Source: Actinomycetales bacterium (lineage in GTDB: Bacteria > Actinomycetota > Actinomycetes > Mycobacteriales > Micromonosporaceae). Taken from it: DNA of 64,000 nt. The notes beneath the pieces were generated by a model, which had not been told where the DNA came from, searched no databases, and saw only the letters and a program-made list of their open reading frames with translations. This document shows positions 49,195-59,947 of the stretch, piece by piece (position 1 is the stretch's first letter; every line of letters starts with the position of its first letter). The translations under genes and the position numbers were made by a program. Where the stretch lies: positions 1 to 64,000 of the forward strand of contig PKFB01000002.1 in assembly GCA_002919305.1 (NCBI GenBank), read 5' to 3'.

Positions 49195-50757
49195 ATGGAA
49201 CGGGTGCTCGCTGGCCGGTACGCACTCGAAGTTGAGATCGCTGAAGGGTCGATCGGCGCTGTCTGGCGCGCCAAGGATCTCCAGGCTAATGAGCTGGTCG
49301 CCGTCAAGCTGCTTCGCCACGAAGCGGCTGACGACCCGGAGGTCGTCAGTGGGTTCCGGGAAGAGGCGAAGGTGCTCGCCCAGCTCAACCACCCCGGTGT
49401 GGTGCGTCCTCGCGACTTCGTCGCCGCCGACGGCGACTTGGCTTTGGTGATGGACCTGGTTGACGGCACTGATCTGCGGCGCCGGATTCAGGACGCAGGT
49501 CCGTTGCCGCCGGTGTTGGCGGTGGACATCACCGCGCAGGTCGCCGAGGCACTGGCCGCGGTGCACGCCGCCGGGATTGTGCACGGCGATGTCAAACCGG
49601 GCAACATCCTCGTCCCCGCTGACGGTGGTCCGGTTCGACTCGCCGATTTCGGGGTGGCTCACCGGGTGCACGGGGCGGCGGCGACCCACGGTACGCCGGA
49701 GTATGTGGCGCCGGAGGTGATCGAGGGAGCATCGCCGGAGCCGGCCAGTGACATCTACAGCCTGGGCATCGTCCTGTATGAGGCTTTGTCGGGGCGCAGT
49801 CCGTTCCGAGGCGGCCCGGTGGCCGAGGTACTCAAACGTCATCAGACCTGCGTCGCGTTGATGCCTCCGGGGATGCCGCCGCAGGTGTGGGAGCTGATCG
49901 CCCGTTGCCTGCAGAAGGATCCGCGGGCGCGTCCCTCCGCGGGGGAGATGGCGGCCGCGTTGCGCGCAATGCTGCCCTCTTTGGCTGATCTGCGGGCCGC
50001 TCCGGAGCTTGCCCCCGAGGTGGTGACCTACCAGCCGCGTGACGCGATGGCCGCCCTTCAGGCAGCCCCGGTCAGCCCGGCTCCCGACAACGCCGGCGTT
50101 CCGGTCAGCCCAGGCCCCGCGATGGACTCGGGGGCACCTGCCGGCCTTGATGGCGCGCCGCTTTCAGGGTGGAACGGTCCGACGCCTACGCCGGAGCAGG
50201 GCGAGTCGGAGGTAGGGATCGGTCTGTTTAGCCCACCCCCCGCCGGGGATCTTGGCTCGCCGACGATGCTGGTTTTCCCCGATGCGGCGCCTCCGTCCGC
50301 CCCGGACAAAACTGACCAGCGTCGCGGTCGTTTCATCGCGATCGCCTCCAGCGTCGCTGCCGCGGTTGTCCTGTTGCTGTTCGTGGGATTCCTGGTGATC
50401 TCCGGGGGTGACGGGTCCGGGGAGAGTCAAGAACCGGCCAACTACCAGCAGGAGTCAAGTTCGCCGGCGCCTGAGCAGTCCTCGGCTGGGGAACCGAGCG
50501 AAGGCGCGACCGAGCCGGAGTCGGAACCGACTACGGAGCCGACGAGCGAATCAACCGAGGAACCCGCTTTGCCTGACGAGGAAGAGGACGGCGACCAGGA
50601 GGACTCCTCTGAGGACCGGTCCGGCAACGGCGACGAGGACGAGACGGAATCCAGGACCAATGACCGGATCCCGGACATTCCTGGTAACGGCAACCCTGGG
50701 CCCACTGGCCCCCCTGGGATCGGTGACCCGATACCCACTCCTCCGTACAGGAGGTGA
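49195..50757 (+). CDS. Membrane Ser/Thr protein kinase, non-RD (HGD) type
   Basis: 520 residues, PknB-like. Kinase domain about 7-265: glycine loop IAEGSIGAVWRAK, lysine in VAVKLL, catalytic loop H130-G131-D132-V-K-P-G-N, DFG in LADFGVA. The arginine normally before the catalytic aspartate is glycine, which makes it a non-RD kinase, possibly with other activation control. The linker is Pro-rich. A membrane helix is at about 377-402. The extracellular part is an acidic Ser/Glu/Asp/Pro tail of about 115 residues with no folded sensor. GGGAGG precedes the ATG. It is followed by a strong terminator. Confidence 0.9.
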   Translation: MERVLAGRYALEVEIAEGSIGAVWRAKDLQANELVAVKLLRHEAADDPEVVSGFREEAKVLAQLNHPGVVRPRDFVAADGDLALVMDLVDGTDLRRRIQDAGPLPPVLAVDITAQVAEALAAVHAAGIVHGDVKPGNILVPADGGPVRLADFGVAHRVHGAAATHGTPEYVAPEVIEGASPEPASDIYSLGIVLYEALSGRSPFRGGPVAEVLKRHQTCVALMPPGMPPQVWELIARCLQKDPRARPSAGEMAAALRAMLPSLADLRAAPELAPEVVTYQPRDAMAALQAAPVSPAPDNAGVPVSPGPAMDSGAPAGLDGAPLSGWNGPTPTPEQGESEVGIGLFSPPPAGDLGSPTMLVFPDAAPPSAPDKTDQRRGRFIAIASSVAAAVVLLLFVGFLVISGGDGSGESQEPANYQQESSSPAPEQSSAGEPSEGATEPESEPTTEPTSESTEEPALPDEEEDGDQEDSSEDRSGNGDEDETESRTNDRIPDIPGNGNPGPTGPPGIGDPIPTPPYRR

Positions 50758-51346: not shown

Positions 51347-51383
51347 GGTGCCACGTCGTAACACGTGGCGACGACGTGGCACC
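51347..51383 (-). terminator. Terminator of the CBM3 kinase gene
   Basis: Arms GGTGCCACGTCGT (51347-51359) and ACGACGTGGCACC (51371-51383) pair over 13 bp with an 11-base loop, about 80 bp past the kinase stop codon on the minus strand. Confidence 0.7.
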
Positions 51384-51460
51384 CCCGATACCCCTCCAGC
51401 ATGGGAGCGCTCCCAACCTACAGCCTCCCGTGCGGGTACCGCGCCGTCAAGTCCGAGAGA

Positions 51461-53005
51461 TCACGGTTCGGTACCCCAGATCAGATCGGTACCGGCATAC
51501 ACCGTGATTGTGTCACTCTCCGTGAAGTCCGCGCTTGCGACATGACTGTGATCGTCGGACTCGTCGAAAAGCGACCAATCCTCCTTGTTGAGGCGAAGTT
51601 GAACTTCTCCGCTGGAGCCGCCTGCAGGGATGTCGCCAGAGGTGAAACCGACCTCGAGGTAGTGGTCAGCGCCTGGTCGTTGGTCCGGTAAGGACACCAC
51701 ACGGTGGGTGATGGTGTCGTTGCCTACCTCGGCCCAGTCGCACCAGCTCTGGAAATCAACGGACTGGTCGAAGGAGAAGTCACCGGTAAACCAGTAACGC
51801 ACAGTGATAGCCGTCAGATCGACGACAACATCACCCAGGTTGATCAGGCGAAACGCGAACTGGATCTGGTTGTCGTTCGGATCGGTGTTCAGGGTTCTGA
51901 CCTGAGCCACGAGGGGCGCCGGCAGAAGGCTTATCTCCCCCTGGGTAGCGCTGTCAGTGGGTAACCCTTCATTCGCTCCCTGTCCGGAATTGGGCCTCAG
52001 CATCGCGACGAGGAGGACCGCCAACACCGCGCCGGTCACCAACGACGCCAACAGCATCAGGGGCAGCGGCGACAGGCGACGCCGATCGGCGGGATATCCC
52101 TCCGGCAGGAGGCGGGTGTCCGATCCGGGCCCCCGGACAGGGACCGGGAGCAGCTCGGTGGAGGGCAGCTGCGGCGACGTCGGGACCGGCATAGCCGAGG
52201 AGGAGGGCGCAGCCGCCCGTAACACCGCGGCGACCTCCGCAGCGGTGGGACGTTCCTGCGGCGACTTGGCCAAACACTGCCGGTAAATGGCCGCGACAGC
52301 GGGAGGGACACCAGGCAGCGGAGGAGCAGGACTGCGCAGGTGAGCCTTGACCAGCTGGGGCCACGTGCCGCCGAACGGGTACCGCCCGGTGAGGGTGTGG
52401 TAGAGCAGCACCCCCAGGGCGTACACGTCGGTGGCGGGCAGGCTGGCGCCGTGTTCGATCCGTTCCGGCGCGATGTACGCGGGGGTGCCCAGCACCGCCT
52501 GTGGGCGTCCTGGTCCGCCCGTCGCTGGAATCGCCGCGATCCCGAAGTCGAGAACTTTAACCCCGTCCGGGGTGAGGAACACGTTATTGGCGGTGACGTC
52601 ACGGTGGATAAGGCCGCGGCGGTGCGCGGCGGCGAGGGCCTCGGCGACCTCGGCGCAGACGCGTAACCCCTCGTTTAACGGCAGCGGGCCCCCTCGGGTG
52701 AGGCGGGAGGCCAGCGACTCCCCTTCGAGCAGCTCCATCACGATGAAGGGGACGACGGTGCCGTCCTCAAGTGTGGACTCACCGTAGTCGAAGACGTTCG
52801 TGATGTGCGGGTGGTTCAGCCGGGCGGCCGCCCGTGCCTCCTGCTGTAGGTTTGCGCGCTGCGTCGAGTCGGCCAGGGTCAGGATCTTCACCGCCACCAG
52901 GCGGTCCAAGACCGTGTCGAAAGCGCGCCACACCGTGGCGGTGCCGCCGGTGCCGATCCGGTCAGTGAGTCGATACCGGTCCGCCAACAGCGTGCCAGAT
53001 TCCAC
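51461..53005 (-). CDS. Membrane Ser/Thr protein kinase with extracellular family 3 cellulose-binding module
   Basis: 514 residues. The kinase domain (about 9-270) has the loop IGTGGTATVWRAF, VAVKIL, H134-R135-D136-V-T-A-N-N and DFG (VLDFGIA). T138 replaces the usual catalytic-loop lysine. After a Pro/Ser linker, a membrane helix spans about 317-338. The rest (about 362-514) is a CBM3: it has IQFAFRLINLGDVVVDL, then ITVRYWFTGD, DHYLEVGFTSGDIPAGGSSGE, LNKEDWSLFDESDDHSHV and the end ITVYAGTDLIWGTEP. CBM3 modules normally bind cellulose or chitin in secreted cellulases. GGGAGG precedes the GTG start. A kinase that senses an insoluble polysaccharide is inferred. Confidence 0.93.
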   Translation of the reverse strand: MESGTLLADRYRLTDRIGTGGTATVWRAFDTVLDRLVAVKILTLADSTQRANLQQEARAAARLNHPHITNVFDYGESTLEDGTVVPFIVMELLEGESLASRLTRGGPLPLNEGLRVCAEVAEALAAAHRRGLIHRDVTANNVFLTPDGVKVLDFGIAAIPATGGPGRPQAVLGTPAYIAPERIEHGASLPATDVYALGVLLYHTLTGRYPFGGTWPQLVKAHLRSPAPPLPGVPPAVAAIYRQCLAKSPQERPTAAEVAAVLRAAAPSSSAMPVPTSPQLPSTELLPVPVRGPGSDTRLLPEGYPADRRRLSPLPLMLLASLVTGAVLAVLLVAMLRPNSGQGANEGLPTDSATQGEISLLPAPLVAQVRTLNTDPNDNQIQFAFRLINLGDVVVDLTAITVRYWFTGDFSFDQSVDFQSWCDWAEVGNDTITHRVVSLPDQRPGADHYLEVGFTSGDIPAGGSSGEVQLRLNKEDWSLFDESDDHSHVASADFTESDTITVYAGTDLIWGTEP

Positions 53006-58987: not shown

Positions 58988-59206
58988 AGACCGTCACTTT
59001 CATCAGAAACCACGGGAGGCTCGCATCCCGGGGACAGTGCGCTTACCTGACAGGGTCAGTCAATTCCTACTCCGTCTCAGGGTCATCCGCATGGCGGAAC
59101 CGCTAACCGGCGGAACGGAGTGGCCGTGCGACCAAGGCAAGGGGCAGCGAAATCGATCAAGAAGGCATATTGTGCCCACGAACCTGAACGCGAGTGGGAG
59201 GTACTA

Positions 59207-59947
59207 GTGGGGCCGGAGACGGAGGCCGACGCCACCATCGAGTTGCGTGCCCTGCGTCCCAGACGAGGTAGGCGGGTTCTGGTCGCGGTGGGGCTGGTGG
59301 TAGCGGTCATGGCTCCCTTGATCGGATTACGGCTCGCCTTCGACTGGCTGTTACGCGACGATGAACGATCAGTGGACGCCCTCCCCGAGCCGCCCCCGAT
59401 CAACCTGGATTCCGAGGTAACCCTCTCCGCCGTCCCCTCACTCTCCGAAACACAGGTGCCAGCGTCGACCTCCCCTTCCGCGTCCCCGTCACCATCCGCC
59501 TCCCTGAGCCCGTCGGAATCCGTCAGCCCATCGGTACCGCCCTCCCGGAACACCACCTCGGGCGCACCCACACCGACAGAAGCGTCCCCTCCTGCGTCAT
59601 CCACCACGCCCGATAGGACCCAACCGCCCAGCCTGGTGGCCTCCTACCGCACCCTGAACAACTGGGGCACAGGCTTCATCGGGCAAGTCATGATCGTCAA
59701 TCAGGGGAACAGTTCGATCAACGGTTGGACCGTGACCATGACGGTCCGGGAAGGCGTTTACCTATCCTTCGCATCCTGGCCAACCCGTGGCCAGCAAAGC
59801 GGAACAACCCTGACATTCAGGCCGGGACAGGGGCAGGCGAACCTGAATCCAGGGGAGAGCGTGACCTTCACATTCCAGGTCCACTCCTACCATAGGCGGG
59901 TAAGCGGCCCCGAAACCTGCACTATCAACGGCACACCATGCCAGTAA
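59207..59947 (+). CDS. Membrane-anchored protein with family 2 cellulose-binding module
   Basis: 246 residues. A short cytoplasmic part (about 1-20), one membrane helix (about 21-42, VLVAVGLVVAVMAPLIGLRL), a Ser/Pro/Thr linker (about 80-140), and a CBM2 domain at the end. The CBM2 shows YRTLNNWGTGFIGQVMIVN, then INGWTVTMTV, SFASWP, NLNPGESVTFTFQV and CTINGTPC. The typical N-terminal cysteine of CBM2 is absent. The frame starts at GTG 59120, but GGGAGG five bases before GTG 59207 decides that start. No catalytic domain is present: it would only hold polysaccharide at the cell surface, or act as a sensor. Confidence 0.88.
   Translation: MGPETEADATIELRALRPRRGRRVLVAVGLVVAVMAPLIGLRLAFDWLLRDDERSVDALPEPPPINLDSEVTLSAVPSLSETQVPASTSPSASPSPSASLSPSESVSPSVPPSRNTTSGAPTPTEASPPASSTTPDRTQPPSLVASYRTLNNWGTGFIGQVMIVNQGNSSINGWTVTMTVREGVYLSFASWPTRGQQSGTTLTFRPGQGQANLNPGESVTFTFQVHSYHRRVSGPETCTINGTPCQ

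Follow-up and report, generated by a model that had tools for sequence, protein, structure and literature searches.

The prevailing view of aerobic actinobacteria is that they perceive cellulose only indirectly, by importing cellobiose, to which the regulator CebR (CelR) responds. In the RsgI anti-sigma factors, an extracellular CBM3 module binds cellulose and an inner domain holds the sigma factor (PMC4711584); RsgI1, RsgI2, and RsgI4 of Clostridium thermocellum are single-pass proteins with the N-terminus inside and a C-terminal CBM3 outside, serving as biomass sensor. The sequence TGGGAGCGCTCCCA is the CebR/CelR operator (PMC5332605), and the excerpts available of Anderson 2012 (PMC3377646) describe CelR-linked Ser/Thr kinases beside LacI regulators in S. 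roseum and T. bispora, with no mention in those excerpts of kinases that bind carbohydrate. A literature search on kinases with carbohydrate-binding modules likewise found no direct report. Here we describe a gene that joins a membrane Ser/Thr kinase to a CBM3. It lies in a window of 64,000 nucleotides (the whole stretch of DNA analysed) from a genome of 4.94 Mb in 84 contigs.

Gene and Protein Architecture

The features of the locus are as follows.

51461..53005 (stop codon included), minus strand: Ser/Thr kinase–TM–CBM3 gene, 514 aa, GTG start
52232..52975, minus strand: kinase domain, residues 11-258 (Pfam Pkinase, E 3.4e-41)
52592..52594, minus strand: T138 codon, a catalytic-loop position usually Lys (68-kinase alignment)
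51998..52075, minus strand: membrane helix, residues 311-336 (hydropathy 2.66 over 19 residues)
51908..51997, minus strand: short extracellular linker of 30 aa (residues 337-366), from the helix end to the first CBM3 strand
51464..51907, minus strand: CBM3 module, residues 367-514 (Pfam, structure matches, model, Foldseek)
51402..51415, no strand assigned: perfect copy of the CebR/CelR operator, TGGGAGCGCTCCCA, 45 bp beyond the kinase–CBM3 stop codon
51347..51383, minus strand: strong hairpin, probable terminator (fold of the 3' region of the kinase gene)
49195..50757, plus strand: second membrane Ser/Thr kinase, of another lineage (Pfam Pkinase, E 8e-52)

The coding strand of 51461-53005, not given in the first-pass annotation, is the minus strand, and a purine-rich, RBS-like GGGAGGGA lies immediately 5' of the GTG start. 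That annotation had read a complete kinase domain and one membrane helix, and both are seen here (E 3.4e-41; helix 311-336). This is the only hydrophobic helix in the single-pass protein.

Residues K40, E56, H134/R135/D136, N141, D153-F154-G155, and T174 are all present, and an alignment of 68 lineage kinases shows K40, D136, N141, and D153 to be invariant. The sequence thus has the VAVK lysine, HRD aspartate, catalytic Asn, and DFG of Hanks-type eSTKs, and with all catalytic residues in place the kinase looks active. T138 had been proposed to tune this activity. We reject a special tuning role for it, as the trait is lineage-wide: threonine is the commonest residue at position 138 among the 68 lineage kinases (T 33, K 27, S 4, A 3, H 1). 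The kinase domain and topology are shared with the PASTA kinases PknB/StkP (NCBIfam NF033483), but the score is far below that family's cut-off (245.6 versus 450 bits), and Pfam finds no PASTA repeats in the protein. In two kinase-domain trees, which differ from each other, the protein branches close to the base of its lineage, in a position that is not firm.

The CBM3 Ectodomain

The first-pass annotation had recommended a profile search of the C-terminal domain, a fold model, and inspection of the aromatic binding strip, and its CBM3 assignment is upheld by all of these. Pfam CBM_3 matches residues 368-452 (E 1.1e-18, scoring 67.9 bits where the cut-off is 22.4), and CBM3 structures solved by crystallography or NMR are matched along their whole length by the last 158 residues of the protein (2l8a, E 6e-30; 6d5b, E 2e-26; CipA CBM3a 1nbc, E 6.5e-21). 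The best Foldseek matches of an ectodomain model made from 26 sequences (pLDDT 90.9, pTM 0.85) are all CBM3s, with TM 0.80-0.87 for bona fide crystal structures and 6d5b at the top (TM 0.87). Against the CBM3 structures of RsgI proteins (4b97, 4b9c, 4b9p, 4b96) the model gives TM 0.81-0.85. The CBM3 is genuine.

For the binding face we used CipA CBM3a positions D56, H57, Y67, R112, and W118 as reference in an alignment of 127 CBM3 rows; the roles of the CipA positions as strip and anchors are what we take them to be from the CBM3a literature. Four of the five strip positions are kept (D56 as D423, H57 as W424, R112 as R471, W118 as W477), tryptophan being the commonest residue among aligned CBM3s in the H57 column. 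Across the alignment the strip residues are D in 99/127, R in 124/127, and W in 119/127. The Y67 loop is missing in 126 of the 127 CBM3s, that of the kinase included, and CipA is the sole row with Y67. Anchors N379 and Q469 are kept, and Y127 is replaced by H486. The planar cellulose-binding strip of CBM3 is thus recognisable in the kinase sequence, from which we infer that the module would bind cellulose.

The CebR Operator and the Regulon of the Window Genome

The operator at 51402-51415 sits between the kinase–CBM3 stop codon and the hairpin at 51347-51383. It is the one exact match to TGGGAGCGCTCCCA in the window, where 0.0008 would be expected by chance, and the closest of the other sites differ from it at three positions. 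It lies between convergent genes rather than upstream of a gene that it might regulate, so control of the kinase by it is not obvious. The box thus places the kinase–CBM3 gene in physical linkage with the cellulose regulon, but it is not in promoter position for the kinase. We considered and rejected a long hairpin that would include the operator palindrome, since the flanking bases are unpaired, unlike TGAGAGCGCTCTCA in L295; a hidden gene behind the operator was also rejected, the two ORFs in the gap having no Pfam match.

The window genome has ten exact copies of TGGGAGCGCTCCCA, the window copy and nine others. At six other loci the copy lies upstream of genes that could be named by Pfam: GH12-CBM2, GH9-CBM3-fn3-CBM2, CBM2-GH6, CBM4-GH9-CBM2, a cebEFG-like operon, and GH1. 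The cebEFG-like operon has an extracellular sugar-binding protein first, then transporter genes, and a GH1-like gene last, and just beyond it lies the genome's best LacI-family match, a CebR candidate (C16:1076-2077). There are 29 CBM2 matches in the genome. The host is a cellulose-degrading actinobacterium. Another perfect box (L298:417-430, G000:C28) lies close to the end of a contig, and no target gene is recognised for it.

In the window itself no glycoside hydrolase is seen by eye among the larger ORFs, in agreement with the first-pass statement that it holds no cellulase gene, and no sigI-like gene was recognised by eye. A further protein with a carbohydrate-binding module is encoded at 59120-59947 on the plus strand. 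It is anchored in the membrane by one helix, has little sequence on the cytoplasmic side, and carries at the end of a long Ser/Thr/Pro linker an extracellular CBM2 (Pfam E 2e-15) that keeps two strip tryptophans. Many relatives have CBM2-bearing ORFs adjoining smpB, one of them (L123) with a different N-terminal domain. This CBM2 protein and the CebR box at 51402-51415 are new relative to the first-pass annotation.

Related Kinases in a Streptosporangiaceae-Like Family

In a whole-protein search of 395 class genomes, the best matches outside the window genome's own family fall mainly in one family (f31), which we take as Streptosporangiaceae from its match with the published S. roseum and T. 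bispora data. Exact CebR boxes are present in all 15 of the loci read in this family, and in 14 of them one such box precedes the kinase ORF by 900-1023 bp. A LacI-family gene lies between box and kinase, overlapping the kinase start, in both loci examined with Pfam (L310 and L318). Seven loci run on into cellulase genes, among them L310 with GH48 and GH9. Five loci of one genus (L319, L320, L323, L324, L325) have a second perfect box 2 bp past the kinase stop; the paired boxes are ~2.5 kb apart and might form a DNA loop or serve a downstream target.

Through these relatives (L310-L325) the kinase–CBM3 can be compared with Sros_0943 and Tbis_0860 (PMC3377646), which appear to be of the same kinase lineage, with the HRDVT motif and perfect CebR boxes nearby. 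The relatives are found behind lacI-family genes, several of them near cellulases. The CebR/CelR-linked Streptosporangiaceae kinases have a helical ectodomain and no CBM, whereas the kinase–CBM3 gene has no adjacent lacI and its sole box is downstream. The gene pair of lacI and kinase is therefore not seen here: in place of a lacI gene directly upstream there is a divergent PadR-like gene. The fifteenth locus, L321, encodes a kinase with a CBM_2 (E 4e-32) whose strip sites W, W, and Y are kept; it belongs to a cellobiose-uptake locus, beside cebF/cebG-like and GH1 genes, with the box 6 bp past the stop.

Related Kinases in the Window Genome's Own Family

The family of the closer relatives is taken as Micromonosporaceae-like by its content. 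The nearest kinases there share ~45-58% identity with the kinase–CBM3 over the kinase domain and differ from it in the ectodomain: among the 67 nearest, Pfam finds CBM_2 in 25 and FIMAH in three, and most of the others appear by eye to have a helical or small beta domain. The CBM2 kinases have the same order of kinase, TM, short linker, and cellulose-type module as the kinase–CBM3, but the module is CBM2 and not CBM3, its tryptophans are mostly lost, and the loci lack the CebR box. No exact box occurs in the 243 kb of 69 kinase loci of this family. Both strip tryptophans are kept in just one (L020) of the 26 kinase CBM2-like modules compared (28 aligned rows, with two neighbour-ORF fragments omitted); the CBM2 modules of the window genome keep the two positions in 25/26 and 26/26. 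Because the CBM2-like kinase modules are mostly without strip tryptophans, the kinase–CBM3 is an exception with a good binding face.

The CBM2 kinases with lost tryptophans (L006, L009, L010, L021, and others) may bind something else. An unnamed small beta ectodomain of ~70 residues (GGTVxAxC...PGPA) marks one kinase clade (L237, L235, L017, L253, and others). In the window genome, two kinase-like proteins with degenerate catalytic motifs, L168 (G000:C7) and L173 (G000:C17), have ectodomains that by eye resemble NPCBM and discoidin domains.

Origin and Rarity of the Fusion

The usual gene order in relatives is tryptophan 2,3-dioxygenase, second kinase, PadR, prfB, ftsE, ftsX, M23 peptidase, and smpB. 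The second kinase (49195-50757), convergent with the kinase–CBM3 gene, occupies the same slot between tryptophan dioxygenase and prfB in many relatives; it has a long acidic extracellular tail rich in Ser, Glu, and Pro. No kinase–CBM3 gene was seen in the corresponding slot in the 34 loci read, so we reject a conserved syntenic position, and the gene looks like an insertion particular to the window genome, the comparison genomes including no second species of its genus.

The G+C content of the CBM3 part is 0.583, against 0.689 for the kinase and 0.704 for the linker. Ranked with coding segments of equal length sampled from the window, it falls within the bottom 0.6%, as would fit a module that arose separately. 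In the CBM3 tree it groups with CBM3s of Micromonosporaceae-like genomes within an actinobacterial set (support 82). The genome's own GH9 CBM3 is therefore unlikely to have been the source. CBM3s of secreted actinobacterial enzymes are up to 51% identical, the best being that of a Streptomyces xylanase-like enzyme. CebR boxes occur upstream of secreted CBM3-enzyme genes too. The difference is that secreted enzymes join CBM3 to an enzyme and the window protein joins it to a membrane kinase.

The frequency of this architecture, which the first-pass annotation had suggested surveying, is a single case: among 118 loci with CBM3 ORFs, drawn from 301 family and 395 class genomes plus an exact-peptide scan of 85,000 genomes, only the gene studied here is fused to a kinase (for the family-wide search, the loci judged are those among the matches listed). 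A whole-protein search, in which few candidates were scored per genome, gave no orthologues with kinase plus CBM3 in 61 relatives or 395 class genomes. The rarity is strong, not absolute. As a single instance, the fusion offers no pattern of conservation that would point to a function.

Discussion

We consider it fairly probable that the protein is a cellulose- or glucan-sensing membrane Ser/Thr kinase of a CebR-tied lineage, with ligand binding, a clustering signal, and targets that we infer. The CBM3 would replace the usual sensor of a single-pass membrane Ser/Thr kinase, and on the outer side of the membrane it would bind a beta-1,4-glucan in crystalline or semi-crystalline form. Binding of glucan would gather kinase molecules, leading to trans-autophosphorylation, the usual activation route of Hanks-type kinases, and the activated kinase may then adjust a cellulose response or a wall-growth response. 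The gene would be a member or a descendant of a lineage of kinases that is linked with the cellulose regulon of CebR (CelR). Thirty linker residues reach ~10 nm at full stretch, too little to span a typical actinobacterial wall; the ligand may therefore be a wall-penetrating glucan or one made at the membrane. The sensing mechanism is drawn by analogy with RsgI (PMC4711584). RsgI differs in having a wall-spanning segment where the kinase–CBM3 has this short linker; here a kinase output stands in place of the anti-sigma domain, with no sigma-I gene nearby. Of the first-pass proposal, the link to cellulose signalling is reinforced by the CebR operator, the genome's own regulon, and the related kinases with CebR boxes, lacI-family genes, and cellulases nearby; direct contact with insoluble cellulose outside a thick wall is made doubtful by the 30-residue linker. 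Counting against the sensing reading are the downstream operator, the short linker, the missing Y67, the change of Y127 to H486, and the singleton fusion.

The short linker, and the equally membrane-proximal modules of the CBM2-kinase relatives, would also suit a CBM3 that senses or docks to a membrane or wall glycan (a self-made tip glucan, a chitin-like glycan, or a wall glycan), with the kinase serving growth or envelope control and not the degradation of plant cellulose. The slot of the gene adjoins prfB-ftsEX, and in streptomycetes CslA/GlxA provide a precedent for a self-made glucan extruded from the membrane; a search of the window genome for the GlxA domain PF09118 gave no match, with controls equally silent. 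The adjacent CebR box and the CebR-linked relatives point instead to the cellulose-degradation regulon, and we think this alternative unlikely. Somewhat less likely still is accidental capture of a gene tail, in which recombination would have joined a kinase to a CBM3 gene's 3' end and its downstream flank, which held the CebR box of a following gene, leaving the CBM3 as a passive tether or with no selected role. Such an event would account for the G+C-poor CBM3 part, the slot that is empty in the relatives read, a fusion found nowhere else in the genomes searched, and a downstream box that has no target gene; L074 does have a box 114 bp past a CBM3 ORF. Yet the gene has an intact reading frame, kinase, and set of binding residues, and a box lies just past the stop in six related kinase loci without CBM3, so it need not have arrived with the module.

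It is very improbable that the ectodomain has lost polysaccharide binding and now serves in structure or protein interaction instead, the apparent fate of most CBM2-like kinase ectodomains. The missing strip tryptophans of those relatives, the absent Y67, and the changed anchor would lean that way, but D, W, R, and W are kept as in nearly all enzyme CBM3s, and the CBM3 of Bacillus Cel5A (2l8a) also lacks Y67.

Beyond the glucan-sensing reading of this one protein, we put forward more tentatively that a kinase lineage within the actinobacterial CebR regulon, with exchangeable glucan-binding ectodomains (CBM2, CBM3, or helical), may form a cellulose-sensing pathway alongside induction by cellobiose through CebR, of which the kinase–CBM3 would be the clearest polymer-binding member. 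If so, aerobic actinobacteria would have a direct sensor of the polymer, as Clostridium thermocellum has in RsgI.
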